Shown here piece by piece: positions 2,949 through 39,782 of a DNA stretch of 64,000 bases. The translations under genes and the position numbers were made by a program. Numbering within the stretch: position 1 is the first letter of the stretch; the number at the start of each line of letters is the position of its first letter. Under the pieces are notes generated by a model. The model was not told where the DNA came from and made no database searches. It saw only the letters and a program-made list of their open reading frames with translations. The DNA lies in NCBI GenBank assembly GCA_023091665.1, contig JALJCQ010000009.1, positions 1,922,001 to 1,986,000 of the forward strand. Direction: 5' to 3'. The stretch comes from Pythium myriotylum. Its lineage: Eukaryota; Oomycota; Peronosporomycetes; Pythiales; Pythiaceae.

Positions 2949-3757
2949 CCGGAGTTGCCGTTGCCGTTGCCGTTGCCGTTGTCCTTGACACGCGAGTGGC
3001 ACTCCGCGGCCCAATGACCGATCTTGCCGCAGTAGTTGCACGTGCCAGTCTTCTTCACTGCACGGCCCTTGGGCTTCGCGTCACTTGTCATGAACGCTTG
3101 GCCAAGCGTGGCTCCGTCGCCACCTTGCTCCTTGCGCTTCATGTCTTCATGGAGCAGCCGAGACGTCACGAGTTCCCACGTGAGCGCGTCGACACGCGAC
3201 TCCAACGCCGTGATGAGGAACTGGTACGACTCGCTGAGACTGCCGAGAAGCGTGATCACCAAGTCGTCTTCGCTGACCGGAGCGCCGACTGCGTCGAGTT
3301 GCTCCGCCAGGGTCTTGAGCTTGTTGATGTGCGTGAGCACATCGTCACCTTCTTCCATCATGGTCGTGAAGAAACGACGACGAAGAAAGAGCTTGTTGGC
3401 AAGGCTCTTCTTCTCGAAGTGTTCTTCCAGTCTTGACCATGCATCTTGCGCACCACTCGCCGACCGAACCAGCGGGAGCTGCGAGTCTTCCATCGCGAGA
3501 CAGATCATCGCGAGCGCCTTGCGAGACTTCTTCTTGAAGAGGGCTCGGTCCGCGTCGGTCTGGCACTGCTCGAGTTTGACCTGTCCACAGACAACTTCCC
3601 AGACGTCGCGTTCTTCGAGCACCATCTGCATCTTGAACTTCCATGTGTGGAAGTTGGTTCCGTCGAACTTGTTGATGCGAGCTGGGGTGGTCGAATCCAT
3701 GGCGAAGGCTGGGGAGGCGAAGTCGGTGGAGGCAGAGTCGGCTGGGCTTGGGCTCAT
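303..3757 (-). pseudogene. Truncated gag-pol polyprotein of A1
   Basis: Open for about 1150 codons from the ATG inside the primer binding site. In order it encodes the Gag domain, a CCHC zinc knuckle (C-x2-C-x4-H-x4-C, from about residue 240), an Asn-Gly hexanucleotide-encoded repeat, the protease motif DSGATQH, the pre-integrase HLRLGH...CEGC region, a DDE integrase with the usual NGVAER motif, and RT up to and just past YVDD. The frame is continuous across the Gag-protease region: A1 lacks the 4-nt duplication that breaks A2-A4. The homologous protein ends shortly after LGELKCCLG, where other copies read LGELKYCLG. The residual open frame into 206-302 is non-homologous. Without RNase H and the 3' LTR the copy cannot be autonomous. 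Confidence 0.88.
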
Positions 3758-3761
3758 AACC
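3748..3761 (-). other. Primer binding site of A1 (half-tRNA-iMet type)
   Basis: On the minus strand this reads GGTTATGAGCCCAA and follows the LTR end with no spacer. It is perfectly complementary to nt 26-39 of the initiator tRNA encoded in this window. The gag ATG is inside it. Confidence 0.85.
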
Positions 3762-9689: not shown

Positions 9690-9703
9690 GGTTATGAGCC
9701 CAA
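9690..9703 (+). other. Primer binding site of A4 with embedded gag ATG
   Basis: GGTTATGAGCCCAA directly abuts the LTR and is complementary over all 14 nt to nt 26-39 of the window's tRNA-iMet (anticodon arm). The gag start ATG is at 9694-9696. Confidence 0.87.
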
Positions 9704-18800: not shown

Positions 18801-19175
18801 TGTTGGAAGGTCGCTTGGTTGGTGGGATGCAAAATGCAAAGTGAATTGATCGGGACTTAGTTCGCTGCTGCTACCTCTAAGCCGTCTGTGTGTGTCCTAC
18901 GCTACCATAATCAAATGTATGTCCTACCTATCGTAAACATATGCAAACATAAACTGACTTCGTGGATACTTCAACGAAGTCGATGGGTGGCACTGGATTC
19001 AAACCAGAACCAGACGGAGAATCTTCCACATGTCGAATCTTCCACATGTCGAATCTTCCACATGTCGAATCTTCCACGGAGAATCTTCTGCAGGAGAATC
19101 TTCTACAGCCGAGCTTCAACTGCCGAGCTTCAACTGGAATGATGACGCTGGGTTCGAGGCGCATCATCTTCAACA
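18801..19175 (-). repeat. Family A LTR 7 (3' LTR of A8, 375 bp)
   Basis: Inverted relative to LTRs 2-6. Three 16-bp repeats. Left outer flank is target duplication CCGTC. Confidence 0.92.
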
Positions 19176-22100
19176 CTCCCCCTCGACTCGACTGCGTCTT
19201 GGACACCGAGCTTGGTGCGGAGCACGTCGAACTGGACAGTGGGGATCGGCTTGGTCATGATGTCGGCAAGCATGTCTTGGGTCGGGCAATACTGCAGACA
19301 CACTTGACCGTCCTCGACCTTCTCACGAACGAAGTGGTAGCGAATGTCGATGTGCTTGGTGCGCTTGTGGAACTCGGGGTTCTTGGCCAACGCGATGGCA
19401 CCTTGGTTGTCTTCGTACACCGTGAGCGCTTGGTCGCTTGCAACTTCGCCGAGTTCGCACAGGAACGCCTTGAGCCACACGGCTTCTTGGATCGCTTCCG
19501 ATAGAGCCATGTACTCTGCTTCGGTCGAGGAGAGGGCGACAGTTCGCTGCTTCTTGCTGCGCCAGCTGATGCATCCGCCGTTGAGCATGAACACGTAGCC
19601 GCTGGTGCTTCGACGTGACTCGATGTCGCCAGCCCAGTCGGCGTCGGAGTAGCCGACCAGTCTTCCGTCGTTCGATGCCGAGAACTGCAGGCCGTACGTC
19701 GGAGTCGCTTGCAGGTATCGGAGCACACGCTTGAGAGCTTGCCAATGTGTTGGACACGGGTCCGCGGCGAACTGGCTGAGTGTGCCGACTGCCGCTGCGA
19801 GGTCTGGTCGAGTGCCGACCATGAGGTACATCAGTGCGCCGACTGCACTTCGGTACGGCACGTTCTTCATGGTGTCTTCGTGCTTGCAACCACCTTCACA
19901 CATGGCCTTGGTCAGCTTGAGTCCGGGGTCTTGAGGAGTCCTCACTGGTTTGCAGTCTTGCATGCCGAACTTGGTCAGGATCGACTGCAGGAACTTGGTC
20001 TGCCGCATGGTCACGTCGCCGGACTTGGGGTCTTGATCAACTTCCATGCCGAGGCAGTACTTGAGTTCGCCGAGGTCGGACATCTCGAAGCGTTCGCTGA
20101 GTGCACGCTTGGTCGCCGTGAGCAACTCGAGGCTGTTGCAGGCGAGGATGAGGTCGTCGACGTAGATCACCACGAAGATCATCGCTGAGCCGCTCCGCTT
20201 GACGTACACGCAGTGGTCCATCTCGCACTTGGTGAAGCCGACCTTGCGCATGAAGGCGTCGATGGTCTGGTTCCACATGCGTGGCGACTGCTTGAGACCG
20301 TAGAGCGAGCGCTTGAGCTTGCACACGTAGTCGGGGTGGCGCTGGTCGACGAAGCCTTCGGGCTGCTTCATGTAGATTTCTTCGTCGAGGTTGCCGTTCA
20401 GGAACGCCGTCTTGACATCCATCTGATGGATCATGAGCTTGTGTCGAGCGGCGATGCTGAGGATGGTTCGGATCGACGTGAACTTGGCGACGGGTGCGAA
20501 TGTCTCTTCGAAGTCGATGCCGTACTTCTGCAGGAACCCCTTGGCAACGAGTCGAGCCTTGTACCGCTCGACGAGTCCTTCGGCGGTTTCCTTGACCTTG
20601 AACACCCACTTGCTGGTGATGGCCTTGCGTCCGGCTGGCAAAGGGACTAGGTCCCAGGTCTCGTTCTTCTTGAGCGACTCGAGCTCCGAGTCGCAGGCTT
20701 CCTTCCAGTTGCTGGCGTCGTCGGATTCCATCGCCGACTTGAACGATGTCGGCAACTCTCCCCCTGAATTCACGACGAGAGCAAACTCTTCGTAATCTTG
20801 GTCTTCTCCCCCTTGTTCTTGCACGTCTTCGCCTTCTTCGTCTTCATCTTCTACGCCTTCCTCTTCGATCGACGTGAGCAGTGCAGACAGATCTTCGAGC
20901 GATGTCCTTGAACCTTGCGTGGGTGGTGGAGTCGCACCACTTGTGCGACCAACCCGTCCGTAGCGCTTCTCAACTGGCGGTTCAGCCAGGTTCTCGAGCG
21001 AGTGCGTGCGAGAGTGGCGCTTGGACCCTGGTGCGTAGTCGACATTCGGCTGCTGGGCCGATGCTGGTGCTACTGGACGCTGCGACCGCTGGCCCTGTTG
21101 CCACTCCGGTCGCTCGTAGCTGCGCTGACTTGGTGCTGGTGAGGCTGGCTGCTCACCCATGTCTTCATCATCTTGGTTGTCGGTTGCTTCATCTTCATCA
21201 TCTTCATCGTCGCGGAACTCGACGGACTTGCTCCAGGGTTCTTCGCGCTTGCCATCGTCGAATGTGTCTTCCATGAACTGCGCGTCTCGACTGATGACGA
21301 TCCGACCGGTTGCGATTTCTTCAAACCGATACGCCTTCTCGTGGTCCGAGTAGCCGAGGAACCGACACAAGATGGCTCGGGCGTCGAACTTCGACCGCTT
21401 CTCCTTGGGCACGTGGACGTACGCATGGCAGCCGAACACCTTGAAGTTGGCGAGCAAGGGCTTCTTCCCGTACCATTCTTCGTACGGCGACTTGTACAAG
21501 TCTTGAGCGCGGGTCGGAAGTCGGTTGCGAACTTCGGCTGCAGTCATGACGGCTTCACCCCAGTACTCGTCGGACAAGTTGGCATGGTGGAGCTTGCAAC
21601 GACCACACTCACCGATGGTTCGGTTCATGCGCTCCGCCACATCGTTCAACTGAGGCGTGTATGGCGGCGTGACATCGTGCTCGATGCCACGCTTGCGGCA
21701 GAACTTGGCAAGTTTGGCCGACTGGTACTCGCCGCCGCCGTCGGTTCGAAGCACCTTGACTCGACGACCGGTTTGGTTCTCGGCCCAGTTGACGTACTGG
21801 ACGAACTTGTCGTAGACTTCGTCCTTGGACCGCATCAGGTACAACTTGCACAGTCGAGACTTGTCGTCGGTGAACGTGGCAAAGTACTTCATGCCGCCGA
21901 AAGTCGGAGTCTTCATGGGGCCGGCCACATCGCTGTACACGACGTCAAGCAGATTCGCAGACCGCTTGGTCGTGCCCGACTGGAACTTGACGCGAGTCAG
22001 CTTGCCGAGTGCACAGCCTTCACAGACCTCCCACTCTTGCACAGACCCAATGTCGAGTCCGTCGGCGAGGTCCTTCTTGACGATGGCTTCGAGACCGCTG

Positions 22101-22687
22101 AAGCCGATGTGACCGAGTCGGAGGTGCCACAGGTACGACTTGGACATGGCGCGACCTCGTCTTGTACTGGCGGCGTGGGCTGCTTCAGTCGACACTGGAG
22201 ACATGTTGAGCTTGAACAGACCCTTGCCGATACGAGTGCCGATGGTCCGCTTGGCGCCATTGAGAACGACGAAGCAACCGTCCTTGTCGAACGTCACGGG
22301 AGCAACGTCCTCCGTGAATCTTCCGACCGAGAACAGGTTGCGGCTGAGCTTGGGGATATGCCACACGTTGGTGAGCAAACCCTTCTTGACACCGCTTGGA
22401 GTCTTCATCGACATGAGAATGTCTCCCACGCCAACCGCTTGGACCGTGCCATCATCGGCCAGATGCACGTCGACTGGGTCGATCTTCCTGTAGTTCATCA
22501 TGAACTGCTTGGTTCGCGACATGTGCTGAGTCGCACCCGAGTCGACCAACCACGCCGTGGATTGACTCGACTTGCCTTGGGTCTTCCCGACCGAGAACAG
22601 GTACTCGCCGGGGTCTTCATCTCGCGCAAGGTTGGCTCGCTGGAACCGTTGCCGAGGGTTGCCGTTTCCGTTGCCGTTGCCGCCGGA

Positions 22688-22727
<40 letters not shown>

Positions 22728-23503
22728 TCCTTGACACGCGAGTGGCACTCCGCGGCCCAATGACCGATCTTGCCGCAGTAGTTGCACGTGCCAGTCTTCT
22801 TGACTGCACGGCCCTTGGGCTTCGCGTCACTTGTCATGAACGCTTGGCCAAGCGTGGCTCCGTCGCCACCTTGCTCCTTGCGCTTCATGTCTTCATGGAG
22901 CAGCCGAGACGTCACGAGTTCCCACGTGAGCGCGTCGACACGCGACTCCAACGCCGTGATGAGGAACTGGTACGACTCGCTGAGACTGCCGAGAAGCGTG
23001 ATCACCAAGTCGTCTTCGCTGACCGGAGCGCCGACTGCGTCGAGTTGCTCCGCCAGGGTCTTGAGCTTGTTGATGTGCGTGAGCACATCGTCACCTTCTT
23101 CCATCATGGTCGTGAAGAAACGACGACGAAGAAAGAGCTTGTTGGCAAGGCTCTTCTTCTCGAAGTGTTCTTCCAGTCTTGACCATGCATCTTGCGCACC
23201 ACTCGCCGACCGAACCAGCGGGAGCTGCGAGTCTTCCATCGCGAGACAGATCATCGCGAGCGCCTTGCGAGACTTCTTCTTGAAGAGGGCTCGGTCCGCG
23301 TCGGTCTGGCACTGCTTGAGTTTGACCTCTCCACAGACAACTTCCCAGACGTCGCGTTCTTCGAGCACCATCTGCATCTTGAACTTCCATGTGTGGAAGT
23401 TGGTTCCGTCGAACTTGTTGATGCGGGCTGGGGTGGTCGAATCCATGGCGAAGGCTGGGGAGGCGAAGTCGGTGGAGGCAGAGTCGGCTGGGCTTGGGCT
23501 CAT
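19130..23503 (-). CDS. gag-pol: Copia gag-pol polyprotein (A8)
   Basis: Uninterrupted frame of 1457 codons from the ATG inside the primer binding site. Order: Gag (about 1-235), CCHC zinc knuckle Cys240-Cys253, Asn-Gly repeat (about 261-282), protease Asp321-Ser-Gly, pre-integrase HLRLGH/CEGC (about 460-500), integrase catalytic Asp525, Asp588 and Glu624 (35 residues between the last two), acidic linker (about 760-910), RT from about 965 with Asp1029 and YVDD at 1114-1117, and RNase H. The gene order PR-IN-RT-RH defines Ty1/Copia. Residue 621 is Asp in NDVAER where A1, A2, A4 and A7 have Gly; it is three residues before catalytic Glu624 and could impair integration. The stop is 46 nt inside the 3' LTR. 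The polyprotein would be cut by its own protease and act in virus-like particles. Confidence 0.93.
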
Positions 23504-23507
23504 AACC
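23494..23507 (-). other. Primer binding site of A8 with embedded gag ATG
   Basis: GGTTATGAGCCCAA on the minus strand, abutting LTR 8; gag ATG occupies 23501-23503. Same 14-nt match to the tRNA-iMet anticodon arm. Confidence 0.87.
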
Positions 23508-23866
23508 TGTTGGAAGGTCGCTTGGTTGGTGGGATGCAAAATGCAAAGTGAATTGATCGGGACTTAGTTCGCTGCTGCTACCTCTAAGCCGTCTGTGTGT
23601 GTCCTACGCTACCATAATCAAATGTATGTCCTACCTATCGTAAACATATGCAAACATAGACTGACTTCGTGGATACTTCAACGAAGTCGATGGGTGGCAC
23701 TGGATTCAAACCAGAACCAGACGGAGAATCTTCCACATGTCGAATCTTCCACATGTCGAATCTTCCACGGAGAATCTTCTGCAGGAGAATCTTCTACAGC
23801 CGAGCTTCAACTGCCGAGCTTCAACTGGAATGATGACGATGGGTTCGAGGCGCATCATCTTCAACA
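23508..23866 (-). repeat. Family A LTR 8 (shared by A8 and A9, 359 bp)
   Basis: Two 16-bp repeats. It has GATGACGATGGG where LTR 7 has GATGACGCTGGG, a variant shared with LTR 9. One side leads into A8's primer binding site and the other into the polypurine tract of A9. Confidence 0.92.
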
Positions 23867-23926
23867 CTCCCCCTCGACTCGACTGCGTCTTGGACACCGA
23901 GCTTGGTGCGGAGCACGTCGAACTGG
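23821..23926 (-). pseudogene. C-terminal end of A9 gag-pol
   Basis: Last codons of the A9 frame ([19 protein letters not shown]...), running through the polypurine tract into LTR 8, where the TGA stop lies. Separated from the rest of pol by B1. Confidence 0.8.
23922..23926. other. Target site duplication of B1 (ACTGG)
   Basis: ACTGG here and at 28629-28633 flank B1. Uninterrupted copies such as A8 have a single ACTGG in this context (GTCGAACTGGACAGTGG). Confidence 0.92.
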
Positions 23927-24281
23927 TATTAAAGGTCACGAAGTCGAGAAGAGGAGTGGACTTGACTGAAGCTTGGCAAAATGCAGAGTGAATTGATCGG
24001 GACTTAGTTCGCTGTCGCTACCTCTAAGCCGTCTTGTGTCCTACGCTACCATAAACATATGCATGTCCTACCTATCGTAATCATATGCAGAGGTATACAC
24101 ACTTCGTGGGTACTTCAACAAGGTTGATGGGTTGAACTGGGTTCAACCCAGAACTAGATGGAGAACTTTCCACCTGAGAATTTTCTACATGGGAATCTTC
24201 CACATGAGAATTTTCTACAGTTGAATCTTCCACAACTTGAACTTCAACTTCAAGATGTTGTGACACATTGTACCCATAATA
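23927..24281 (-). repeat. Family B LTR (3' LTR of B1, 355 bp)
   Basis: Ends TATTA...TAATA. An internal block from about TGAATTGATCGGGACTTAG to CCTACCTATCGTAA is closely similar to the family A LTR. Confidence 0.92.
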
Positions 24282-24288
24282 GCCCCCC

Positions 24289-27200
24289 TCAATGGTCACA
24301 GCCTTGAATTCCGAGGGCTTGAGTGAGCTCTTGGTGACGAGGACCGGGTAGACCCTTCGTGAGCAAGTCGGCGTTCATGGTTGAGCTTGGGCAGTACTTT
24401 ACTTCGACTTCCCCGGACTTGACTTCATCACGAATGTGGTGGTATTTGATGTCGATGTGCTTGGCACGACCATGGTTTACTGGGTTCTTGGTCATCTTGA
24501 TGCATGACTGGTTGTCTTCAAGAATCACCAACTTCGGACTTGGGACTTGTGCAGCGTCCAATGCTTCACACAGTAGGCGATGGACCCACTTGCCCTCTTG
24601 AATTGCGAGACTCAATGCGATGTACTCGGCTTCGCTTGTAGATAGGGAGACACTTGATTGCTTCTTGGATCCCCAGCTAATGGGTCCGCCGGCAAGTGTA
24701 AACACGTAGCCGGATGTTGACTTGCGGTCTGATATGTCACCGGCCCAATCGGCATCGGAGTAGCCAGCAAACTTCATGTCCGGGTCTGTGGTGAATCGAA
24801 TCCCGTGCGACTTGGTGCCTTGGAGGTAACGGAAGATGCGCTTGACGGCAATCCAATGGACTTCATGGGGCGCTTCCATGAATCGCGAGACCATTCCCAC
24901 GGCGAATGCAATGTCAGGTCGAGTGGCACACATTACATGCATCAGTGCACCAACTGCCTCGCGGTATGGGGCATTGGTGACCGGCACATCGTCTTCATTC
25001 GTCGTGGTGAGCTTGGCACTGACGTCAACTGGGCTTGCTACCGGCTTGCAGTCTTCCATGTTGAAGCGCTTTAAGATGTCACTGATGTAACGGCGCTGGC
25101 ACAGAGTAACCGAACCATCTGCATTGTCGACGAGTTCGATGCCGAGGACAAACTTGCATGGACCATTGTCGGTCATCTCGAATCGCGTCTTGAGTTGTGA
25201 CTTCACGTCCGTGATCAGGTCAGGCGAACTTCCAGTAATGATCACATCGTCAACGTAGACGAGTAGGAGCACACACTGGCCATCGATACACTTGATGTAC
25301 AGACACGGATCGGACTTGGATGCGTTGAAGCCGATCGATCGTACGTACTCGTCGAAGGTTTCGTTCCAGACCCGAGACGCCTGTTTTAGTCCGTAGATGG
25401 ACTTGAGTAGCTTGAGACAGTCGTAGCCTCGCTCGAGTTCCATGCCTTCGGGAGTCCGGATGAATACTTGTTCCTTCATCACGCCATAAAGGAAAGCAGT
25501 TACGACGTCGAGTTGCTCAACAGGCCAACCGAATGACTTTGCTAGTGCAATCATCATGCGAAGAGTCGTGTACTTGAATACTGGTGCAAACGTCTCGGTG
25601 TAGTCGATACCGTACTTCTGCTTGAATCCTCGAGCCACAAGTCGAGCCTTGTACTTGTCGATCGAACCATCGGCACGTCTTTTGATCTTGAACACCCACT
25701 TGGCGTCGATCGCTCGTTCGCCGTTTGGAAGCTTGGCTGGTGAGAACACTTCTCGTTCTTGCATAGATCGTAACTCGGCGGTAATCGCACGCTTCCAGTG
25801 TTCTTGATCTGGGCCACTGACGGCCTCTTCATACGTGCTTGGTTCAGTGAAATCGCTGGTCTCTGTCAGGTTCGCACTTGCACGCCACCACTCGACTGGG
25901 GACATTCGTCGTCGGGTTGATCTTCGAACACTTTCCGAACCGCTTGCTTCATCGTCTGCGTCGGATTGCATTGGTTCAACTGGTTGTGGGGCACCTGAGC
26001 GGCGTTTGCCACTGTACTTGAAATTGGCCAAGTTGAGACCACCTTCGTTGTCGATGTCATCGAGTCGTTCCAGCAAGTCGTCCATGCCTGATGTAGTGTT
26101 TTCGAGGTACCAGCCGCCGGGCTTGGTCTCGTCGAAATTGACATCGCGACTGATGACGATCTTGTTAGCTTCAATGTCGAAGATCCGATACGCTTTTGAT
26201 GACTCTTGATAACCGACGAATAGGCCAGGGCGAGACTTGGCATCCCACTTCTTGCGCATCTCACTTGGTGTGAGTACGAACGCGAGACAGCCGAAGACGC
26301 GCATGTGCTTGATGCTAGGTTTCTCACCGTAGACCAGTTCATACGGTGTCTTGTCGTTGGACTTCGGTGATGGCAAGCGATTCTTGATGTAGATCGCGGT
26401 CATTGCTGCTTCTGCCCAGAAGATTTTGTCCAAACCAGCATGATGGAGCATGCTGCGACCCATCGTGACGATACTTCGGATGTTGCGCTCGGCCGTACTG
26501 TTGGTTTGGTGCGCGTATGGCACAGTGACTTGCTGCTCGATGCCTTGGTCAGCATAGAACGCCTTGATTGCACTCGTAGCAAATTCCTTGGCTCCGTCGT
26601 GACGTACAAACTTGACACGGCGATCAAACTGGTTGCTGACTTGCTTGATGAATTTGATGATCAGTGCACTGCAGTCTGACTTGGACGCAATGCATGAACC
26701 GTGCATCAAACCACTGGATTCGTCCACGATCAGGAGCAAATACTTGCTGCCGCCGATGCTGTCGACCTCCATCGGGCCACAAAGGTCGAGATGGATGAGT
26801 TCGAACGGTTGAAACTTGCGCTTCTCGGTGTTGGACTTGAATGGCTTCTGGACCATTTTGCCTTGCTGGCACCCTTGGCACATCGGTGTAGCTTTGGTGC
26901 TCGTAGGCAGATCCGCGTCCTTCACCATTGACTTGTCGAGCAACAAGCGCAACAACGGAGTCGATGCATGACCCATGCGCTCGTGCAGGATCGAGATTGC
27001 GCGGTCCGCCGAGATTGTCAAAGCTGAAGGCGAAGTGGCGCGCGGGAATGAGCGGAGCCAAAACAACCCGAACGCAAGTTGAGCAGTCGCGACGACCTTC
27101 CGCGACCTTTTGTCGAATACGCTCATTGCAGGCCCTTCGAAGACAACGCGAAACTTGCCTGACTTGTTGATCTGCGGGATTGAAAGCAGATTCTTCTTGA

Positions 27201-28269
27201 TTCCTGGTACGTATAATACGTCGCGGAGTTCGAGGTCACGAACTTGTCCGCCGTGAATGATAGCGCGCTCGTGCACTGTGCCAACGCCGAGGATCTTGGT
27301 CTTCGTTCCTTCCGCGACCACAAGTTCACCGTGGTCGCCCTCAGCCAAACTGGCAAACATCGAGCGGTCGTTACAGACATGGTGCGTGGCACCACTGTCA
27401 ATCGCCCACTTCCCAATCATGGAAGTGTCCGGCGCTATACTGGCCTCCATTGATACAGCGAAGGCGATGGCGTCATCGTCTTCTTCATAGTCGCGTTGTA
27501 CGTGGTTCGCGCGTTTTCCGCCAAAGCGACCACCGCCGAATTTGCGACCTTCTTGCTTGTTCTTGGCCCAACAACGGTCAACTAAGTGACCAGTCTTGCC
27601 GCAGTGCGAGCATACACGAGTATCTTGCTCCGACACAAACGCCTTGGCTTGGTCGTCGAGCTTGGTGGCTGCAGTCTTCATCTCGCCGGCACGCTTCACG
27701 TGCTCGTTCGTGAGAGCCTTGATCACTTCTTTAGTTCTCAAGTCGGCATTGCTCATCTCGATGTGCAGAACCACGTTCTCATAGCTCTTAGGCAAACTGC
27801 GCAGCAGACAAATTGCCACATCTTCGTCCTCCATCTTCGCGCCGATGGCCACAAGCTTGGCGTGGATGTTGAGGATCTCGTTGCAGTGATGCAACACATT
27901 CGCGCCTTCCTTCATCTCCATACTAAAGAGCTGACGCTTCAAGTAGATTCGACCCGCCTTCTGCGACCCTTCGTACAACGAACGGAGTCGCTTCCATGCC
28001 ACATGAGCTTCTTCACAGTCGTCGACGATGTGGTGGTACTCCGCGTCGATATGGAGGAGCATCAGGCCGAACGCGATGTTGTTGGTCCTGATGTATTCGT
28101 CCTTGATCCGCGGGTCCGAGAACGTCGGCGTCTCGTTGATGTTCACGACATTCCACACCGACTTGGTTAGGAACACGCCTCGCATGTAGCGTGCCCACGA
28201 AGCGTAGTTGTCGCCACGGAACTTGTCAACGAGAGTCTTTGTCTTGTCCGTCATGGTACTTGGGCTCAT
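24289..28269 (-). CDS. gag-pol: Copia gag-pol polyprotein (B1)
   Basis: 1326 codons, uninterrupted. Gag (1-215; RGDNYASW, then UBN2-like), CCHC knuckle Cys220-Cys233, protease Asp291-Ser-Gly-Ala, pre-integrase with HERMGH and CQGC (about 429-467), integrase Asp495, Asp558 and Glu594 (35 residues between the last two), RT from about 855 with Asp921 and YVDD at 1005-1008, RNase H with SDAD (Asp1172), SEAEY, EDNQS and HIDIKYH. All catalytic residues I can check are present. The integrase motif before Glu594 reads NSTAERN, unlike NGVAERM in family A. The protein is clearly divergent from family A. The start ATG is inside the primer binding site. The stop lies just upstream of the 3' LTR, next to a G-rich polypurine tract. 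Confidence 0.95.
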   Translation of the reverse strand: MSPSTMTDKTKTLVDKFRGDNYASWARYMRGVFLTKSVWNVVNINETPTFSDPRIKDEYIRTNNIAFGLMLLHIDAEYHHIVDDCEEAHVAWKRLRSLYEGSQKAGRIYLKRQLFSMEMKEGANVLHHCNEILNIHAKLVAIGAKMEDEDVAICLLRSLPKSYENVVLHIEMSNADLRTKEVIKALTNEHVKRAGEMKTAATKLDDQAKAFVSEQDTRVCSHCGKTGHLVDRCWAKNKQEGRKFGGGRFGGKRANHVQRDYEEDDDAIAFAVSMEASIAPDTSMIGKWAIDSGATHHVCNDRSMFASLAEGDHGELVVAEGTKTKILGVGTVHERAIIHGGQVRDLELRDVLYVPGIKKNLLSIPQINKSGKFRVVFEGPAMSVFDKRSRKVVATAQLAFGLFWLRSFPRATSPSALTISADRAISILHERMGHASTPLLRLLLDKSMVKDADLPTSTKATPMCQGCQQGKMVQKPFKSNTEKRKFQPFELIHLDLCGPMEVDSIGGSKYLLLIVDESSGLMHGSCIASKSDCSALIIKFIKQVSNQFDRRVKFVRHDGAKEFATSAIKAFYADQGIEQQVTVPYAHQTNSTAERNIRSIVTMGRSMLHHAGLDKIFWAEAAMTAIYIKNRLPSPKSNDKTPYELVYGEKPSIKHMRVFGCLAFVLTPSEMRKKWDAKSRPGLFVGYQESSKAYRIFDIEANKIVISRDVNFDETKPGGWYLENTTSGMDDLLERLDDIDNEGGLNLANFKYSGKRRSGAPQPVEPMQSDADDEASGSESVRRSTRRRMSPVEWWRASANLTETSDFTEPSTYEEAVSGPDQEHWKRAITAELRSMQEREVFSPAKLPNGERAIDAKWVFKIKRRADGSIDKYKARLVARGFKQKYGIDYTETFAPVFKYTTLRMMIALAKSFGWPVEQLDVVTAFLYGVMKEQVFIRTPEGMELERGYDCLKLLKSIYGLKQASRVWNETFDEYVRSIGFNASKSDPCLYIKCIDGQCVLLLVYVDDVIITGSSPDLITDVKSQLKTRFEMTDNGPCKFVLGIELVDNADGSVTLCQRRYISDILKRFNMEDCKPVASPVDVSAKLTTTNEDDVPVTNAPYREAVGALMHVMCATRPDIAFAVGMVSRFMEAPHEVHWIAVKRIFRYLQGTKSHGIRFTTDPDMKFAGYSDADWAGDISDRKSTSGYVFTLAGGPISWGSKKQSSVSLSTSEAEYIALSLAIQEGKWVHRLLCEALDAAQVPSPKLVILEDNQSCIKMTKNPVNHGRAKHIDIKYHHIRDEVKSGEVEVKYCPSSTMNADLLTKGLPGPRHQELTQALGIQGCDH

Positions 28270-28273
28270 AACC
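28260..28273 (-). other. Primer binding site of B1 with embedded gag ATG
   Basis: GGTTATGAGCCCAA on the minus strand, identical to the family A site, abutting the LTR. The gag ATG is at 28267-28269. Confidence 0.87.
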
Positions 28274-28628
28274 TATTAAAGGTCACGAAGTCGAGAAGAG
28301 GAGTGGACTTGACTGAAGCTTGGCAAAATGCAGAGTGAATTGATCGGGACTTAGTTCGCTGTCGCTACCTCTAAGCCGTCTTGTGTCCTACGCTACCATA
28401 AACATATGCATGTCCTACCTATCGTAATCATATGCAGAGGTATACACACTTCGTGGGTACTTCAACAAGGTTGATGGGTTGAACTGGGTTCAACCCAGAA
28501 CTAGATGGAGAACTTTCCACCTGAGAATTTTCTACATGGGAATCTTCCACATGAGAATTTTCTACAGTTGAATCTTCCACAACTTGAACTTCAACTTCAA
28601 GATGTTGTGACACATTGTACCCATAATA
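28274..28628 (-). repeat. Family B LTR (5' LTR of B1, 355 bp)
   Basis: Same length and, by eye, same sequence as the 3' LTR; TATTA...TAATA. Confidence 0.92.
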
Positions 28629-28633
28629 ACTGG
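28629..28633. other. Target site duplication of B1, right copy (ACTGG)
   Basis: Second ACTGG, directly after the LTR end CCCATAATA. Confidence 0.92.
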
Positions 28634-31600
28634 ACAGTGGGGATCGGCTTGGTCATGATGTCGGCAAGCATGTCTTGGGTCGGGCAATACTGCAGACACA
28701 CTTGACCGTCCTCGACCTTCTCACGAACGAAGTGGTAGCGAATGTCGATGTGCTTGGTGCGCTTGTGGAACTCGGGGTTCTTGGCCAACGCGATGGCACC
28801 TTGGTTGTCTTCGTACACCGTGAGCGCTTGGTCGCTTGCAACTTCGCCGAGTTCGCACAGGAACGCCTTGAGCCACACGGCTTCTTGGATCGCTTCCGAT
28901 AGAGCCATGTACTCTGCTTCGGTCGAGGAGAGGGCGACAGTTCGCTGCTTCTTGCTGCGCCAGCTGATGCATCCGCCGTTGAGCATGAACACGTAGCCGC
29001 TGGTGCTTCGACGTGACTCGATGTCGCCAGCCCAGTCGGCGTCGGAGTAGCCGACCAGTCTTCCGTCGTTCGATGCCGAGAACTGCAGGCCGTACGTCGG
29101 AGTCGCTTGCAGGTATCGGAGCACACGCTTGAGAGCTTGCCAATGTGTTGGACACGGGTCCGCGGCGAACTGGCTGAGTGTGCCGACTGCCGCTGCGAGG
29201 TCTGGTCGAGTGCCGACCATGAGGTACATCAGTGCGCCGACTGCACTTCGGTACGGCACGTTCTTCATGGTGTCTTCGTGCTTGCAACCACCTTCACACA
29301 TGGCCTTGGTCAGCTTGAGTCCGGGGTCTTGAGGAGTCCTCACTGGTTTGCAGTCTTGCATGCCGAACTTGGTCAGGATCGACTGCAGGAACTTGGTCTG
29401 CCGCATGGTCACGTCGCCGGACTTGGGGTCTTGATCAACTTCCATGCCGAGGCAGTACTTGAGTTCGCCGAGGTCGGACATCTCGAAGCGTTCGCTGAGT
29501 GCACGCTTGGTCGCCGTGAGCAACTCGAGGCTGTTGCAGGCGAGGATGAGGTCGTCGACGTAGATCACCACGAAGATCATCGCTGAGCCGCTCCGCTTGA
29601 CGTACACGCAGTGGTCCATCTCGCACTTGGTGAAGCCGACCTTGCGCATGAAGGCGTCGATCGTCTGGTTCCACATGCGTGGCGACTGCTTGAGACCGTA
29701 GAGCGAGCGCTTGAGCTTGCACACGTAGTCGGGGTGGCGCTGGTCGACGAAGCCTTCGGGCTGCTTCATGTAGATTTCTTCGTCGAGGTTGCCGTTCAGG
29801 AACGCCGTCTTGACATCCATCTGATGGATCATGAGCTTGTGTCGAGCGGCGATGCTGAGGATGGTTCGGATCGACGTGAACTTGGCGACGGGTGCGAATG
29901 TCTCTTCGAAGTCGATGCCGTACTTCTGCAGGAACCCCTTGGCAACGAGTCGAGCCTTGTACCGCTCGACGAGTCCTTCGGCGGTTTCCTTGACCTTGAA
30001 CACCCACTTGCTGGTGATGGCCTTGCGTCCGGCTGGCAAAGGGACTAGGTCCCAGGTCTCGTTCTTCTTGAGCGACTCGAGCTCCGAGTCGCAGGCTTCC
30101 TTCCAGTTGCTGGCGTCGTCGGATTCCATCGCCGACTTGAACGATGTCGGCAACTCTCCCCCTGAATTCACGACGAGAGCAAACTCTTCGTAATCTTGGT
30201 CTTCTCCCCCTTGTTCTTGCACGTCTTCGCCTTCTTCGTCTTCATCTTCTACGCCTTCCTCTTCGATCGACGTGAGCAGTGCAGACAGATCTTCGAGCGA
30301 TGTCCTTGAACCTTGCGTGGGTGGTGGAGTCGCACCACTTGTGCGACCAACCCGTCCATAGCGCTTCTCAACTGGCGGTTCAGCCAGGTTCTCGAGCGAG
30401 TGCGTGCGAGAGTGGCGCTTGGACCCTGGTGCGTAGTCGACATTCGGCTGCTGGGCCGATGCTGGTGCTACTGGACGCTGCGACCGCTGGCCCTGTTGCC
30501 ACTCCGGTCGCTCGTAGCTGCGCTGACTTGGTGCTGGTGAGGCTGGCTGCTCACCCATGTCTTCATCATCTTGGTTGTCGGTTGCTTCATCTTCATCATC
30601 TTCATCGTCGCGGAACTCGACGGACTTGCTCCAGGGTTCTTCGCGCTTGCCATCGTCGAATGTGTCTTCCATGAACTGCGCGTCTCGACTGATGACGATC
30701 CGACCGGTTGCGATTTCTTCAAACCGATACGCTTTCTCGTGGTCCGAGTAGCCGAGGAACCGACACAAGATGGCTCGGGCGTCGAACTTCGACCGCTTCT
30801 CCTTGGGCACGTGGACGTACGCATGGCAGCCGAACACCTTGAAGTTGGCGAGCAAGGGCTTCTTCCCGTACCATTCTTCGTACGGCGACTTGTACAAGTC
30901 TTGAGCGCGGGTCGGAAGTCGGTTGCGAACTTCGGCTGCAGTCATGACGGCTTCACCCCAGTACTCGTCGGACAAGTTGGCATGGTGGAGCTTGCAACGA
31001 CCACACTCACCGATGGTTCGGTTCATGCGCTCCGCCACATCGTTCAACTGAGGCGTGTATGGCGGCGTGACATCGTGCTCGATGCCACGCTTGCGGCAGA
31101 ACTTGGCAAGTTTGGCCGACTGGTACTCGCCGCCGCCGTCGGTTCGAAGCACCTTGACTCGACGACCGGTTTGGTTCTCGGCCCAGTTGACGTACTGGAC
31201 GAACTTGTCGTAGACTTCGTCCTTGGACCGCATCAGGTACAACTTGCACAGTCGAGACTTGTCGTCGGTGAACGTGGCAAAGTACTTCATGCCGCCGAAA
31301 GTCGGAGTCTTCATGGGGCCGGCCACATCGCTGTACACGACGTCAAGCAGATTCGCAGACCGCTTGGTCGTGCCCGACTGGAACTTGACGCGAGTCAGCT
31401 TGCCGAGTGCACAGCCTTCACAGACCTCCCACTCTTGCACAGACCCAATGTCGAGTCCGTCGGCGAGGTCCTTCTTGACGATGGCTTCGAGACCGCTGAA
31501 GCCGATGTGACCGAGTCGGAGGTGCCACAGGTACGACTTGGACATGGCGCGACCTCGTCTTGTACTGGCGGCGTGGGCTGCTTCAGTCGACACTGGAGAC

Positions 31601-32527
31601 ATGTTGAGCTTGAACAGACCCTTGCCGATACGAGTGCCGATGGTCCGCTTGGCGCCATTGAGAACGACGAAGCAACCGTCCTTGTCGAACGTCACGGGAG
31701 CAACGTCCTCCGTGAATCTTCCGACCGAGAACAGGTTGCGGCTGAGCTTGGGGATATGCCACACGTTGGTGAGCAAACCCTTCTTGACACCGCTTGGAGT
31801 CTTCATCGACATGAGAATGTCTCCCACGCCAACCGCTTGGACCGTGCCATCATCGGCCAGATGCACGTCGACTGGGTCGATCTTCCTGTAGTTCATCATG
31901 AACTGCTTGGTTCGCGACATGTGCTGAGTCGCACCCGAGTCGACCAACCACGCCGTGGATTGACTCGACTTGCCTTGGGTCTTCCCGACCGAGAACAGGT
32001 ACTCGCCGGGGTCTTCATCTCGCGCAAGGTTGGCTCGCTGGAACCGTTGCCGAGGGTTGCCGTTGCCGTTGCCGTTGCCGCCGGAGTTGCCGTTGCCGTT
32101 GCCGTTGCCGTTGTCCTTGACACGCGAGTGGCACTCCGCGGCCCAATGACCGATCTTGCCGCAGTAGTTGCACGTGCCAGTCTTCTTGACTGCACGGCCC
32201 TTGGGCTTCGCGTCACTTGTCATGAACGCTTGGCCAAGCGTGGCTCCGTCGCCACCTTGCTCCTTGCGCTTCATGTCTTCATGGAGCAGCCGAGACGTCA
32301 CGAGTTCCCACGTGAGCGCGTCGACACGCGACTCCAACGCCGTGATGAGGAACTGGTACGACTCGCTGAGACTGCCGAGAAGCGTGATCACCAAGTCGTC
32401 TTCGCTGACCGGAGCGCCGACTGCGTCGAGTTGCTCCGCCAGGGTCTTGAGCTTGTTGATGTGCGTGAGCACATCGTCACCTTCTTCCATCATGGTCGTG
32501 AAGAAACGACGACGAAGAAAGAGCTTG

Positions 32528-32532
32528 TTGGC
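32528..32532. other. Target site duplication of B2 (TTGGC), left copy
   Basis: TTGGC here and at 37235-37239; A8 has one TTGGC in the matching gag position (GCTTGTTGGCAAGGC). Confidence 0.92.
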
Positions 32533-32887
32533 TATTAAAGGTCACGAAGTCGAGAAGAGGAGTGGACTTGACTGAAGCTTGGCAAAATGCAGAGTGAATT
32601 GATCGGGACTTAGTTCGCTGTCGCTACCTCTAAGCCGTCTTGTGTCCTACGCTACCATAAACATATGCATGTCCTACCTATCGTAATCATATGCAGAGGT
32701 ATACACACTTCGTGGGTACTTCAACAAGGTTGATGGGTTGAACTGGGTTCAACCCAGAACTAGATGGAGAACTTTCCACCTGAGAATTTTCTACATGGGA
32801 ATCTTCCACATGAGAATTTTCTACAGTTGAATCTTCCACAACTTGAACTTCAACTTCAAGATGTTGTGACACATTGTACCCATAATA
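32533..32887 (-). repeat. Family B LTR (3' LTR of B2, 355 bp)
   Basis: TATTA...TAATA ends; looks identical to the B1 LTRs. Confidence 0.92.
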
Positions 32888-32894
32888 GCCCCCC

Positions 32895-35800
32895 TCAATG
32901 GTCACAGCCTTGAATTCCGAGGGCTTGAGTGAGCTCTTGGTGACGAGGACCGGGTAGACCCTTCGTGAGCAAGTCGGCGTTCATGGTTGAGCTTGGGCAG
33001 TACTTTACTTCGACTTCCCCGGACTTGACTTCATCACGAATGTGGTGGTATTTGATGTCGATGTGCTTGGCACGACCATGGTTTACTGGGTTCTTGGTCA
33101 TCTTGATGCATGACTGGTTGTCTTCAAGAATCACCAACTTCGGACTTGGGACTTGTGCAGCGTCCAATGCTTCACACAGTAGGCGATGGACCCACTTGCC
33201 CTCTTGAATTGCGAGACTCAATGCGATGTACTCGGCTTCGCTTGTAGATAGGGAGACACTTGATTGCTTCTTGGATCCCCAGCTAATGGGTCCGCCGGCA
33301 AGTGTAAACACGTAGCCGGATGTTGACTTGCGGTCTGATATGTCACCGGCCCAATCGGCATCGGAGTAGCCAGCAAACTTCATGTCCGGGTCTGTGGTGA
33401 ATCGAATCCCGTGCGACTTGGTGCCTTGGAGGTAACGGAAGATGCGCTTGACGGCAATCCAATGGACTTCATGGGGCGCTTCCATGAATCGCGAGACCAT
33501 TCCCACGGCGAATGCAATGTCAGGTCGAGTGGCACACATTACATGCATCAGTGCACCAACTGCCTCGCGGTATGGGGCATTGGTGACCGGCACATCGTCT
33601 TCATTCGTCGTGGTGAGCTTGGCACTGACGTCAACTGGGCTTGCTACCGGCTTGCAGTCTTCCATGTTGAAGCGCTTTAAGATGTCACTGATGTAACGGC
33701 GCTGGCACAGAGTAACCGAACCATCTGCATTGTCGACGAGTTCGATGCCGAGGACAAACTTGCATGGACCATTGTCGGTCATCTCGAATCGCGTCTTGAG
33801 TTGTGACTTCACGTCCGTGATCAGGTCAGGCGAACTTCCAGTAATGATCACATCGTCAACGTAGACGAGTAGGAGCACACACTGGCCATCGATACACTTG
33901 ATGTACAGACACGGATCGGACTTGGATGCGTTGAAGCCGATCGATCGTACGTACTCGTCGAAGGTTTCGTTCCAGACCCGAGACGCCTGTTTTAGTCCGT
34001 AGATGGACTTGAGTAGCTTGAGACAGTCGTAGCCTCGCTCGAGTTCCATGCCTTCGGGAGTCCGGATGAATACTTGTTCCTTCATCACGCCATAAAGGAA
34101 AGCAGTTACGACGTCGAGTTGCTCAACAGGCCAACCGAATGACTTTGCTAGTGCAATCATCATGCGAAGAGTCGTGTACTTGAATACTGGTGCAAACGTC
34201 TCGGTGTAGTCGATACCGTACTTCTGCTTGAATCCTCGAGCCACAAGTCGAGCCTTGTACTTGTCGATCGAACCATCGGCACGTCTTTTGATCTTGAACA
34301 CCCACTTGGCGTCGATCGCTCGTTCGCCGTTTGGAAGCTTGGCTGGTGAGAACACTTCTCGTTCTTGCATAGATCGTAACTCGGCGGTAATCGCACGCTT
34401 CCAGTGTTCTTGATCTGGGCCACTGACGGCCTCTTCATACGTGCTTGGTTCAGTGAAATCGCTGGTCTCTGTCAGGTTCGCACTTGCACGCCACCACTCG
34501 ACTGGGGACATTCGTCGTCGGGTTGATCTTCGAACACTTTCCGAACCGCTTGCTTCATCGTCTGCGTCGGATTGCATTGGTTCAACTGGTTGTGGGGCAC
34601 CTGAGCGGCGTTTGCCACTGTACTTGAAATTGGCCAAGTTGAGACCACCTTCGTTGTCGATGTCATCGAGTCGTTCCAGCAAGTCGTCCATGCCTGATGT
34701 AGTGTTTTCGAGGTACCAGCCGCCGGGCTTGGTCTCGTCGAAATTGACATCGCGACTGATGACGATCTTGTTAGCTTCAATGTCGAAGATCCGATACGCT
34801 TTTGATGACTCTTGATAACCGACGAATAGGCCAGGGCGAGACTTGGCATCCCACTTCTTGCGCATCTCACTTGGTGTGAGTACGAACGCGAGACAGCCGA
34901 AGACGCGCATGTGCTTGATGCTAGGTTTCTCACCGTAGACCAGTTCATACGGTGTCTTGTCGTTGGACTTCGGTGATGGCAAGCGATTCTTGATGTAGAT
35001 CGCGGTCATTGCTGCTTCTGCCCAGAAGATTTTGTCCAAACCAGCATGATGGAGCATGCTGCGACCCATCGTGACGATACTTCGGATGTTGCGCTCGGCC
35101 GTACTGTTGGTTTGGTGCGCGTATGGCACAGTGACTTGCTGCTCGATGCCTTGGTCAGCATAGAACGCCTTGATTGCACTCGTAGCAAATTCCTTGGCTC
35201 CGTCGTGACGTACAAACTTGACACGGCGATCAAACTGGTTGCTGACTTGCTTGATGAATTTGATGATCAGTGCACTGCAGTCTGACTTGGACGCAATGCA
35301 TGAACCGTGCATCAAACCACTGGATTCGTCCACGATCAGGAGCAAATACTTGCTGCCGCCGATGCTGTCGACCTCCATCGGGCCACAAAGGTCGAGATGG
35401 ATGAGTTCGAACGGTTGAAACTTGCGCTTCTCGGTGTTGGACTTGAATGGCTTCTGGACCATTTTGCCTTGCTGGCACCCTTGGCACATCGGTGTAGCTT
35501 TGGTGCTCGTAGGCAGATCCGCGTCCTTCACCATTGACTTGTCGAGCAACAAGCGCAACAACGGAGTCGATGCATGACCCATGCGCTCGTGCAGGATCGA
35601 GATTGCGCGGTCCGCCGAGATTGTCAAAGCTGAAGGCGAAGTGGCGCGCGGGAATGAGCGGAGCCAAAACAACCCGAACGCAAGTTGAGCAGTCGCGACG
35701 ACCTTCCGCGACCTTTTGTCGAATACGCTCATTGCAGGCCCTTCGAAGACAACGCGAAACTTGCCTGACTTGTTGATCTGCGGGATTGAAAGCAGATTCT

Positions 35801-36875
35801 TCTTGATTCCTGGTACGTATAATACGTCGCGGAGTTCGAGGTCACGAACTTGTCCGCCGTGAATGATAGCGCGCTCGTGCACTGTGCCAACGCCGAGGAT
35901 CTTGGTCTTCGTTCCTTCCGCGACCACAAGTTCACCGTGGTCGCCCTCAGCCAAACTGGCAAACATCGAGCGGTCGTTACAGACATGGTGCGTGGCACCA
36001 CTGTCAATCGCCCACTTCCCAATCATGGAAGTGTCCGGCGCTATACTGGCCTCCATTGATACAGCGAAGGCGATGGCGTCATCGTCTTCTTCATAGTCGC
36101 GTTGTACGTGGTTCGCGCGTTTTCCGCCAAAGCGACCACCGCCGAATTTGCGACCTTCTTGCTTGTTCTTGGCCCAACAACGGTCAACTAAGTGACCAGT
36201 CTTGCCGCAGTGCGAGCATACACGAGTATCTTGCTCCGACACAAACGCCTTGGCTTGGTCGTCGAGCTTGGTGGCTGCAGTCTTCATCTCGCCGGCACGC
36301 TTCACGTGCTCGTTCGTGAGAGCCTTGATCACTTCTTTAGTTCTCAAGTCGGCATTGCTCATCTCGATGTGCAGAACCACGTTCTCATAGCTCTTAGGCA
36401 AACTGCGCAGCAGACAAATTGCCACATCTTCGTCCTCCATCTTCGCGCCGATGGCCACAAGCTTGGCGTGGATGTTGAGGATCTCGTTGCAGTGATGCAA
36501 CACATTCGCGCCTTCCTTCATCTCCATACTAAAGAGCTGACGCTTCAAGTAGATTCGACCCGCCTTCTGCGACCCTTCGTACAACGAACGGAGTCGCTTC
36601 CATGCCACATGAGCTTCTTCACAGTCGTCGACGATGTGGTGGTACTCCGCGTCGATATGGAGGAGCATCAGGCCGAACGCGATGTTGTTGGTCCTGATGT
36701 ATTCGTCCTTGATCCGCGGGTCCGAGAACGTCGGCGTCTCGTTGATGTTCACGACATTCCACACCGACTTGGTTAGGAACACGCCTCGCATGTAGCGTGC
36801 CCACGAAGCGTAGTTGTCGCCACGGAACTTGTCAACGAGAGTCTTTGTCTTGTCCGTCATGGTACTTGGGCTCAT
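32895..36875 (-). CDS. gag-pol: Copia gag-pol polyprotein (B2)
   Basis: 1326 codons with the same protein sequence as the B1 product, including the CCHC knuckle, protease DSGA, integrase Asp495/Asp558/Glu594, RT YVDD and RNase H motifs. The start ATG is in the primer binding site. With intact LTRs and frame, this copy and B1 are the best candidates for recently mobile elements in the window. Confidence 0.95.
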   Translation of the reverse strand: MSPSTMTDKTKTLVDKFRGDNYASWARYMRGVFLTKSVWNVVNINETPTFSDPRIKDEYIRTNNIAFGLMLLHIDAEYHHIVDDCEEAHVAWKRLRSLYEGSQKAGRIYLKRQLFSMEMKEGANVLHHCNEILNIHAKLVAIGAKMEDEDVAICLLRSLPKSYENVVLHIEMSNADLRTKEVIKALTNEHVKRAGEMKTAATKLDDQAKAFVSEQDTRVCSHCGKTGHLVDRCWAKNKQEGRKFGGGRFGGKRANHVQRDYEEDDDAIAFAVSMEASIAPDTSMIGKWAIDSGATHHVCNDRSMFASLAEGDHGELVVAEGTKTKILGVGTVHERAIIHGGQVRDLELRDVLYVPGIKKNLLSIPQINKSGKFRVVFEGPAMSVFDKRSRKVVATAQLAFGLFWLRSFPRATSPSALTISADRAISILHERMGHASTPLLRLLLDKSMVKDADLPTSTKATPMCQGCQQGKMVQKPFKSNTEKRKFQPFELIHLDLCGPMEVDSIGGSKYLLLIVDESSGLMHGSCIASKSDCSALIIKFIKQVSNQFDRRVKFVRHDGAKEFATSAIKAFYADQGIEQQVTVPYAHQTNSTAERNIRSIVTMGRSMLHHAGLDKIFWAEAAMTAIYIKNRLPSPKSNDKTPYELVYGEKPSIKHMRVFGCLAFVLTPSEMRKKWDAKSRPGLFVGYQESSKAYRIFDIEANKIVISRDVNFDETKPGGWYLENTTSGMDDLLERLDDIDNEGGLNLANFKYSGKRRSGAPQPVEPMQSDADDEASGSESVRRSTRRRMSPVEWWRASANLTETSDFTEPSTYEEAVSGPDQEHWKRAITAELRSMQEREVFSPAKLPNGERAIDAKWVFKIKRRADGSIDKYKARLVARGFKQKYGIDYTETFAPVFKYTTLRMMIALAKSFGWPVEQLDVVTAFLYGVMKEQVFIRTPEGMELERGYDCLKLLKSIYGLKQASRVWNETFDEYVRSIGFNASKSDPCLYIKCIDGQCVLLLVYVDDVIITGSSPDLITDVKSQLKTRFEMTDNGPCKFVLGIELVDNADGSVTLCQRRYISDILKRFNMEDCKPVASPVDVSAKLTTTNEDDVPVTNAPYREAVGALMHVMCATRPDIAFAVGMVSRFMEAPHEVHWIAVKRIFRYLQGTKSHGIRFTTDPDMKFAGYSDADWAGDISDRKSTSGYVFTLAGGPISWGSKKQSSVSLSTSEAEYIALSLAIQEGKWVHRLLCEALDAAQVPSPKLVILEDNQSCIKMTKNPVNHGRAKHIDIKYHHIRDEVKSGEVEVKYCPSSTMNADLLTKGLPGPRHQELTQALGIQGCDH

Positions 36876-36879
36876 AACC
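36866..36879 (-). other. Primer binding site of B2 with embedded gag ATG
   Basis: Same 14-nt site as in B1; gag ATG at 36873-36875. Confidence 0.87.
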
Positions 36880-37234
36880 TATTAAAGGTCACGAAGTCGA
36901 GAAGAGGAGTGGACTTGACTGAAGCTTGGCAAAATGCAGAGTGAATTGATCGGGACTTAGTTCGCTGTCGCTACCTCTAAGCCGTCTTGTGTCCTACGCT
37001 ACCATAAACATATGCATGTCCTACCTATCGTAATCATATGCAGAGGTATACACACTTCGTGGGTACTTCAACAAGGTTGATGGGTTGAACTGGGTTCAAC
37101 CCAGAACTAGATGGAGAACTTTCCACCTGAGAATTTTCTACATGGGAATCTTCCACATGAGAATTTTCTACAGTTGAATCTTCCACAACTTGAACTTCAA
37201 CTTCAAGATGTTGTGACACATTGTACCCATAATA
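36880..37234 (-). repeat. Family B LTR (5' LTR of B2, 355 bp)
   Basis: TATTA...TAATA ends; followed by the right TTGGC duplication. Confidence 0.92.
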
Positions 37235-37596
37235 TTGGCAAGGCTCTTCTTCTCGAAGTGTTCTTCCAGTCTTGACCATGCATCTTGCGCACCACTCGCC
37301 GACCGAACCAGCGGGAGCTGCGAGTCTTCCATCGCGAGACAGATCATCGCGAGCGCCTTGCGAGACTTCTTCTTGAAGAGGGCTCGGTCCGCGTCGGTCT
37401 GGCACTGCTTGAGTTTGACCTCTCCACAGACAACTTCCCAGACGTCGCGTTCTTCGAGCACCATCTGCATCTTGAACTTCCATGTGTGGAAGTTGGTTCC
37501 GTCGAACTTGTTGATGCGAGCTGGGGTGGTCGAATCCATGGCGAAGGCTGGGGAGGCGAAGTCGGTGGAGGCAGAGTCGGCTGGGCTTGGGCTCAT
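37235..37596 (-). pseudogene. N-terminal Gag of A9
   Basis: About 120 codons, [10 protein letters not shown] to EKKSLAN, from the ATG in the primer binding site up to the B2 insertion point. Downstream Gag resumes at 32532. Confidence 0.88.
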
Positions 37597-37600
37597 AACC
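37587..37600 (-). other. Primer binding site of A9 with embedded gag ATG
   Basis: GGTTATGAGCCCAA on the minus strand, abutting LTR 9; gag ATG at 37594-37596. Confidence 0.87.
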
Positions 37601-37959
37601 TGTTGGAAGGTCGCTTGGTTGGTGGGATGCAAAATGCAAAGTGAATTGATCGGGACTTAGTTCGCTGCTGCTACCTCTAAGCCGTCTGTGTGTGTCCTAC
37701 GCTACCGTAATCATATGTATGTCCTACCTATCGTAAACATATGCAAACATAGACTGACTTCGTGGATACTTCAACGAAGTCGATGGGTGGCACTGGATTC
37801 AAACCAGAACCAGACGGAGAATCTTCCACATGTCGAATCTTCCACATGTCGAATCTTCCACGGAGAATCTTCTGCAGGAGAATCTTCTACAGCCGAGCTT
37901 CAACTGCCGAGCTTCAACTGGAATGATGACGATGGGTTCGAGGCGCATCATCTTCAACA
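37601..37959 (-). repeat. Family A LTR 9 (5' LTR of A9, 359 bp)
   Basis: Two 16-bp repeats; GATGACGATGGG variant as in LTR 8. Its outer end is followed by the right CCGTC duplication. Confidence 0.92.
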
Positions 37960-39710: not shown

Positions 39711-39782
39711 TAGCACTTGTTGGTCTCGATCCAACGACCTTTGGGTTATGAGCCCAACACGCTTCCTCTGCGCCAAAGTGCT
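39711..39782 (-). tRNA. tRNA-iMet (CAT), array copy L1
   Basis: 72 nt, no intron, folds as a full cloverleaf: 7-bp acceptor stem AGCACTT/AAGTGCT, D stem, anticodon stem TTGGG/CCCAA with loop CTCATAA, T stem GTTGG/CCAAC. Initiator hallmarks are the A1:T72 pair, three G:C pairs at the base of the anticodon stem, and T loop ATCGAGA with A at positions 54 and 60 in place of T54. Internal A box (TGGCGCAGAGG) and B box (GGATCGAGACC) are present, and a TTCTTTT terminator follows the gene. Confidence 0.96.

Follow-up and report, generated by a model that had tools for sequence, protein, structure and literature searches.

Comparison of the Copia elements in a 64,000-nt stretch of Pythium myriotylum DNA (hereafter the window) with those elsewhere in the genome and with homologous proteins indicates that the location of the Gag start codon inside the primer binding site (PBS) is a real and well-supported arrangement in Hemivirus-type Copia elements. 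In the explanation that we hold, as a whole, with good confidence, priming by one half of the initiator tRNA (tRNA-iMet) would put an AUG into the PBS, and most of the assessed families would use this AUG as the start of Gag. The elements would be oomycete Copia elements (Pseudoviridae, Hemivirus-like) whose primer is a 39-nt fragment, the 5' half of the initiator tRNA; since such a primer would end in the anticodon arm, the PBS beside the LTR must carry the complement of CAU, and an AUG would thus be forced into it. The features of the window that bear on the arrangement are the following.

28260..28273, minus strand: PBS of element B1, GGTTATGAGCCCAA (14 nt), which abuts the LTR and holds the Gag start ATG (28269..28267)
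24289..28269, minus strand: Gag-Pol ORF of B1, 1326 aa, starting MSPSTMTDK at the PBS ATG, with Pfam Retrotran_gag_2 (29-195), rve and RVT_2
28274..28628, minus strand: 5' LTR of B1, 355 bp, TATTA...TAATA, with the 5-bp target duplication CCAGT outside
23927..24281, minus strand: 3' LTR of B1, with 0 differences to the 5' LTR in 355
37234..36880 and 32887..32533, minus strand: LTRs of element B2, with the target duplication GCCAA
36866..36879, minus strand: PBS of B2, in the same layout as in B1, with the ORF at 36875..32895 (1326 aa)
19130..23503, minus strand: Gag-Pol ORF of a family A element, 1457 aa, whose next Met is residue 20
23494..23507, minus strand: PBS of this family A element, whose ATG (23503..23501) opens the Gag-Pol ORF
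37587..37600, minus strand: PBS of the family A element that hosts the nested B1 and B2, with a frame of 142 codons from the PBS and a stop inside the B2 LTR
3748..3761, minus strand: PBS of a further family A copy, with 1183 codons open from the ATG
9690..9703, plus strand: PBS of a further family A copy, with 335 codons open from the ATG
39711..39782, minus strand: tRNA-Met(CAT) gene, one of 18, the putative source of the primer half

B1 and B2 are intact, young elements, both complete, with four identical 355-bp LTRs, two 5-bp target duplications and two 1326-aa ORFs. Both have inserted into a single family A element (23508-37959), whose body at 28597-32493, 99% like other A elements, is flanked by B LTRs. 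A chimera or an assembly error was considered for this structure and was ruled out by the target duplications CCAGT and GCCAA, which indicate that two B elements inserted into the same A element. The 3' LTR of the host A element (23866-23508) appears to double as the 5' LTR for the A element that follows, giving a tandem with one shared LTR. The LTRs of family B start with TATTA and finish with TAATA, in place of TG...CA.

Between their LTRs the elements have a single ORF that encodes Gag and places integrase ahead of reverse transcriptase, as expected for Pseudoviridae (Ty1/Copia), and the Pfam domains of families A, B and E follow the Copia order gag_2, Pol_BBD, gag_pre-integrs, rve and RVT_2. 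Among the best 120 each of 507, 143 and 274 protein matches, the best named relatives were nearly all oomycete Copia polyproteins. The genus Hemivirus is defined by the use of a short tRNA segment as primer, and the ICTV expects the genera to be revised on the basis of phylogeny (PMC8515867). The PBS described here is complementary to an internal segment of the initiator tRNA in the anticodon arm and not to its 3' end, so that the elements fall under this definition by complementarity.

The 14 nucleotides of GGTTATGAGCCCAA pair 14/14 with linear nucleotides 26-39 of the 72-nt tRNA-iMet of the window, with the CAT anticodon opposite the Gag ATG. We take this tRNA-Met to be the initiator from its sequence, the A:U pair at the start of the acceptor stem being presumably initiator-like. 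The LTR end TTTAATA lies directly 5' of the B1 PBS, and the family A PBS, identical in all 14 nt, directly follows an LTR ending in CCAACA. The original prediction that the PBS ATG is the first in-frame ATG in both families was borne out: it is the first after the upstream in-frame stop, and the resulting ORFs of 1326 aa (B) and 1457 aa (A) both begin with Met-Ser-Pro-Ser. The 39-nt tRNA fragment named there fits the data since the 14-nt PBS is complementary to nucleotides 26-39; the primer would then be a 5' half of the size known for Drosophila copia.

With up to one mismatch allowed, the 12-mer GGTTATGAGCCC returned 24 matches in the window, all of them exact, against 0.16 expected. Eighteen of these are antisense to the 18 tRNA-Met genes that ARAGORN detected in the window, while the other six are PBSs of elements. 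Throughout the searched genome (58.7 Mb in 55 contigs, the window being part of it), HGGTTATGAGCCC gave 491 matches compared with a single one for the reversed control; a variant tRNA gene accounts for one or more of these. In the first 100 sites listed, most matches sit in a few dense blocks per contig, on C1, C3 and C4.

The relation between the PBS and the Gag frame was assessed across the Copia families of the genome. Most of the 491 sites are A- or B-like. The flanks were read for 28 PBS sites that differ from A and B just 3' of the PBS, in a listing that covered all continuations of the PBS other than two small classes, A[CGT] and AAGC[AGT]. Five sites were set aside and the other 23 made up 11 families, which together with A and B gave 13 assessable families, each represented by one copy. 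Families were defined by eye from the N-terminal reading, and 12 of the 13 (all except N), compared by blastp, were at most 59% identical. The sites dropped from the family count were a tRNA gene (L059), a B copy (L040) and three sites (L039, L062 and L065) at which no Copia Gag core was seen in the first 600 nt in any of the three frames. L065 carries the same PBS (15 nt, 1501-1516), followed by an ORF that lacks a recognisable Copia core and starts MTDRTPRDEDIEDD in another frame.

The Gag core and the PBS ATG share a frame in 12 of the 13 families, and in 11 of them (A, B, C, D, E, F, G, I, J, K and N) the frame is also open from this ATG to the core, the core itself being decayed in K and N. 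Taking the families as unrelated, the binomial probability of 12 out of 13 in frame at 1/3 is about 2e-5; since families and homologues are of common ancestry, this value and the one given below for the homologues overstate independence. Eight different distances from the PBS to the core, ranging from 36 to 102 nt, occur in the 11 open families. In four of the 11 (C, I, J and K) the stretch from the PBS to the core is free of any further Met, and the first one downstream in C and J falls within Pfam gag_2. Blastp returned 28% identity between A and B over about 250 aa of Gag and 23-30% between A or B and the C-L clade, with no reported match of I to A or B; this divergence suggests that the layout is either old or was regained. 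A selection test on copies of family A was uninformative, as the 31 copies, picked by their common first 18 nt, are identical over the first 66 nt.

Two families separate the PBS from the Gag start. Family H (L054-L056) keeps the PBS and has the Gag core in another frame; the PBS ATG opens a 7-codon uORF in all three copies, and Gag starts at its own ATG (MKKPQDLL...) in L055 and L056. Family N, by eye close to H, is in frame, with 39 nt between the two ATGs against 38 in H, so that a one-base difference parts the states of the two families. In family L two stops follow the PBS ATG.

Homologous proteins provided a second line of evidence. The best 120 each of the 507, 143 and 274 matches correspond to 356 distinct proteins, 244 of which start with Met and have the Gag core in the first 75 residues; 110 proteins without the core there and two with the core but no initial Met were left out. 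Among the matches listed, 36 of the 244 core-bearing homologues begin with Met-Ser-Pro. In the preferred explanation, the complement of the tRNA anticodon arm would supply the first three codons (Met-Ser-Pro) and the opening base of codon 4, and if Met-Ser-Pro is translated PBS, codon 4 must start with A. Position 4 is occupied by a residue that has at least one codon starting with A (S, R, T, N, K, I or M) in 35 of these 36 proteins, P0116 being the sole exception, against 103 of the 208 other core-bearing proteins among the matches listed (Fisher 6e-9, a figure that overstates the evidence since the proteins are mutually related). P0066 and P0251 also begin with Met-Ser-Pro and, having no core in the first 75 residues, stand outside the 36. 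No other Met precedes the core in 13 of the 36; the Met of P0318 lies inside the core motif, hence 13 and not 14. The 16 named proteins of the 36 belong to Phytophthora, Peronospora, Pythium, Lagenidium and Aphanomyces, all of which we take to be oomycetes, and the other 20 are unnamed. Globisporangium, also among the genera of the relatives, is an oomycete. The remaining 208 of the 244 core-bearing homologues are annotated with another N-terminus, many at a later Met, the presence and frame of a PBS being features that are not visible from proteins.

DNA from other sources was also searched. Pattern scans gave 85, 45 and at least 120 stretches, and tblastn of ten Copia proteins against these 250 found matches in three, L234, L211 and L204, all of them contigs filed as prokaryotic genomes and probably representing eukaryotic contamination. 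Only L234, where a contig of an Acidobacteria MAG contains a Copia fragment, has Gag near the PBS: the 12-nt PBS is the same, a 4-codon uORF follows and Gag starts at codon 35, whereas in L211 and L204 the matched Gag-Pol begins hundreds of bases from the PBS. One protein-guided scan of viral contigs gave no match and a second gave one distant match, L318.

The leaders upstream of the PBS contain candidate transcription start sites, which in the two families of the window are located as follows.

28333..28339, minus strand: INR-like TTCACTC followed by TGCATTTT, family B, with transcription predicted to begin at an A near 28336, which leaves 67 nt to the ATG and no ATG between
23546..23552, minus strand: INR-like TTCACTT followed by TGCATTTT, family A, with a predicted leader of 46 nt without ATG

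An INR-like NTCACTY motif, picked after the leaders had been seen, occurs 30-66 nt upstream of the PBS in 11 of the 13 families, against 1.0 expected from mononucleotide shuffles; family D has two matches, of which the nearer was taken, and the leaders of families I and K have none. The oomycete INR is defined as YCAYTYY in the relevant passage of PMC3599244, and 10 of the 11 motifs fit this consensus in full, that of family H being off at the last base. From the INR A to the PBS ATG the 11 families span 31-67 nt, in total 510 nt without a single ATG, compared with 30 ATGs in the 1650 nt made up of the 150 nt upstream of each. We infer from these motifs that transcription starts at the INR-like element, and the PBS AUG is therefore the predicted first AUG of the RNA. 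The predicted fold hides this AUG in family B, in a U5-PBS hairpin, and only partly in family A, so that RNA structure offers no common answer. In family B (28267-28287) pairing is possible between CGTGACC at the LTR end and GGTTATG in the PBS, as a hairpin around TTTAATA that would hide the AUG.

In the preferred explanation, transcription would probably begin at the oomycete INR 31-67 nt before the AUG, and scanning ribosomes would meet the PBS AUG first. From this we infer initiation at the PBS AUG, which in all likelihood is the main Gag start wherever it is in frame and open. Gag expression could be kept in two ways: either the AUG stays in frame, as in most of the assessed families, or it is followed almost directly by a stop, leaving a tiny uORF (H, L and L234), these lineages starting Gag downstream of the neutralised PBS AUG. 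The original prediction had the PBS fix the N-terminus of Gag, and named a downstream start in relatives with the same PBS as evidence against it. The frame across families, the Met-Ser-Pro homologues and the leaders favour a PBS-encoded N-terminus; an obligatory link did not hold, as some relatives do start downstream (H and L234 behind a uORF, L behind two stops), while most assessed families retain the PBS start. The layout is thus common, and with the PBS apart from the Gag start in H, L and L234 the coupling is optional. On the sequences compared, neither these three cases nor the results on Met6 of family B contradict a start at the PBS AUG in families A, B, C, I or J.

Leaky scanning might modify this outcome. 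The PBS AUG would be met first but would be weak, and much or most Gag would be made from the second Met (residue 6 in B, residue 20 in A), which we consider possible although improbable. The sequence ACCATGA around Met6 of family B, which we take to be a good initiation context, compares favourably with GGTTATGA at the PBS, and many homologues among the matches listed are annotated from a Met of the Met6 type. However, such a Met is missing from families C, I, J and K and from the 13 Met-Ser-Pro homologues mentioned above, and three relatives of family B (P0017, P0061 and P0081) have no Met at position 6 and retain MSPS. In families that have a second Met, leaky scanning overlaps with a start at the PBS AUG, and both starts may be used.

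The identity of start codon and primer site also raises the question of a switch between translation and packaging. By geometry, annealed primer would mask the start codon; start codon and primer site being the same nucleotides, the two uses exclude each other, and one RNA should not be initiated and primed there simultaneously. An annealed half-tRNA primer might then take an RNA out of translation and into packaging and reverse transcription, a tentative idea that we rate below leaky scanning and that would add to the preferred explanation without excluding it. The case for it is a geometric one: every base of the AUG would be paired with the primer, and the pairing of the PBS with the 39-nt fragment has a predicted energy of -28.1 kcal/mol, the fragment's own small hairpin included. 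By analogy, the passages on Ty1 describe a 5' RNA domain that unites translation initiation, packaging and priming (PMC5454406). On the other hand, H, L and L234 keep the PBS apart from the Gag start, which makes the coupling dispensable, and since priming is described as taking place inside particles (PMC8515867), masking may follow commitment and not cause it. It is more doubtful still that the identity of anticodon and start codon is exploited, such that a cut and annealed 5' half of tRNA-iMet shuts Gag initiation on an RNA and commits that RNA to packaging; if this were true, a single 14-nt site would both sense the supply of tRNA halves and switch the fate of the RNA.

That the frame is a coincidence, with Gag always starting downstream and the PBS AUG ignored, is very improbable, for although H and L234 show that Gag manages without the PBS AUG, the frame is kept in 12 of 13 families, residue 4 is biased in the Met-Ser-Pro homologues and families exist without any other Met.

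A PBS-located Gag start can be compared with several known systems. The Gag start of Drosophila copia lies well downstream; the ORF of yeast Ty5 is about as long as its internal region and its layout may be similar to that described here, which would lower the novelty of the arrangement. Both elements use an internally cut initiator tRNA that primes at the anticodon arm, as is proposed here, according to the passages devoted to them (PMC5371799, PMC10886601); in comparison with these descriptions, the AUG required in the PBS would here be the probable Gag start. Ty1, in the parts of PMC5454406 that treat its 5' RNA, also has the PBS inside GAG near a short 5' UTR and one RNA domain for the three functions, but it uses full-length tRNA(iMet), with a 53-nt 5' UTR and a PBS at nt 95-104 that pairs with the 3' end of the tRNA and lies apart from the start codon. 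A PBS complementary to half of tRNA-Met, as found here, is reported for the plant Copia lineages Osser, Bryco and part of Gymco-II (PMC6317226), and an anticodon-loop PBS for fungal Copia (PMC10886601); these plant and fungal passages do not state where Gag starts with respect to the PBS, and the term 'start codon' is absent from the main text of PMC6317226. CoLT, a centromere-enriched element of Phytophthora sojae, is by description likewise an oomycete Copia element with one Gag-Pol ORF, and its passages in PMC7082073 report LTRs marked by TG...CA, in contrast to the TATTA...TAATA of family B. CoLT clusters in centromeres in the same passages, and the dense blocks of PBS sites noted above are likened to these clusters by position only; the term 'primer binding' is absent from the main text of that paper (PMC7082073). 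A Gag start inside a half-tRNA PBS was not found described in the passages of the open-licence literature searched.

How the RNA of an LTR retroelement is divided between its roles as mRNA and genome is a long-standing question, for which families H and L, with their separated layout, are natural controls within one genome. The signature of Met-Ser-Pro followed by an A-initial codon at the Gag start may flag Copia elements primed by half of tRNA(iMet) from protein sequence, with the warning that gene predictors may pick a later Met.

The elements adjoin arrays of the gene for the tRNA that would prime them. The 18 tRNA-Met(CAT) genes at 38227-64000 stand in tandem arrays with units of about 0.9 kb and 2.1 kb, in both orientations and with long inverted arms. 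One tRNA-iMet copy (56068-56139) has a single base changed in the anticodon stem (CGGTTATG versus GGGTTATG, opposite strand).
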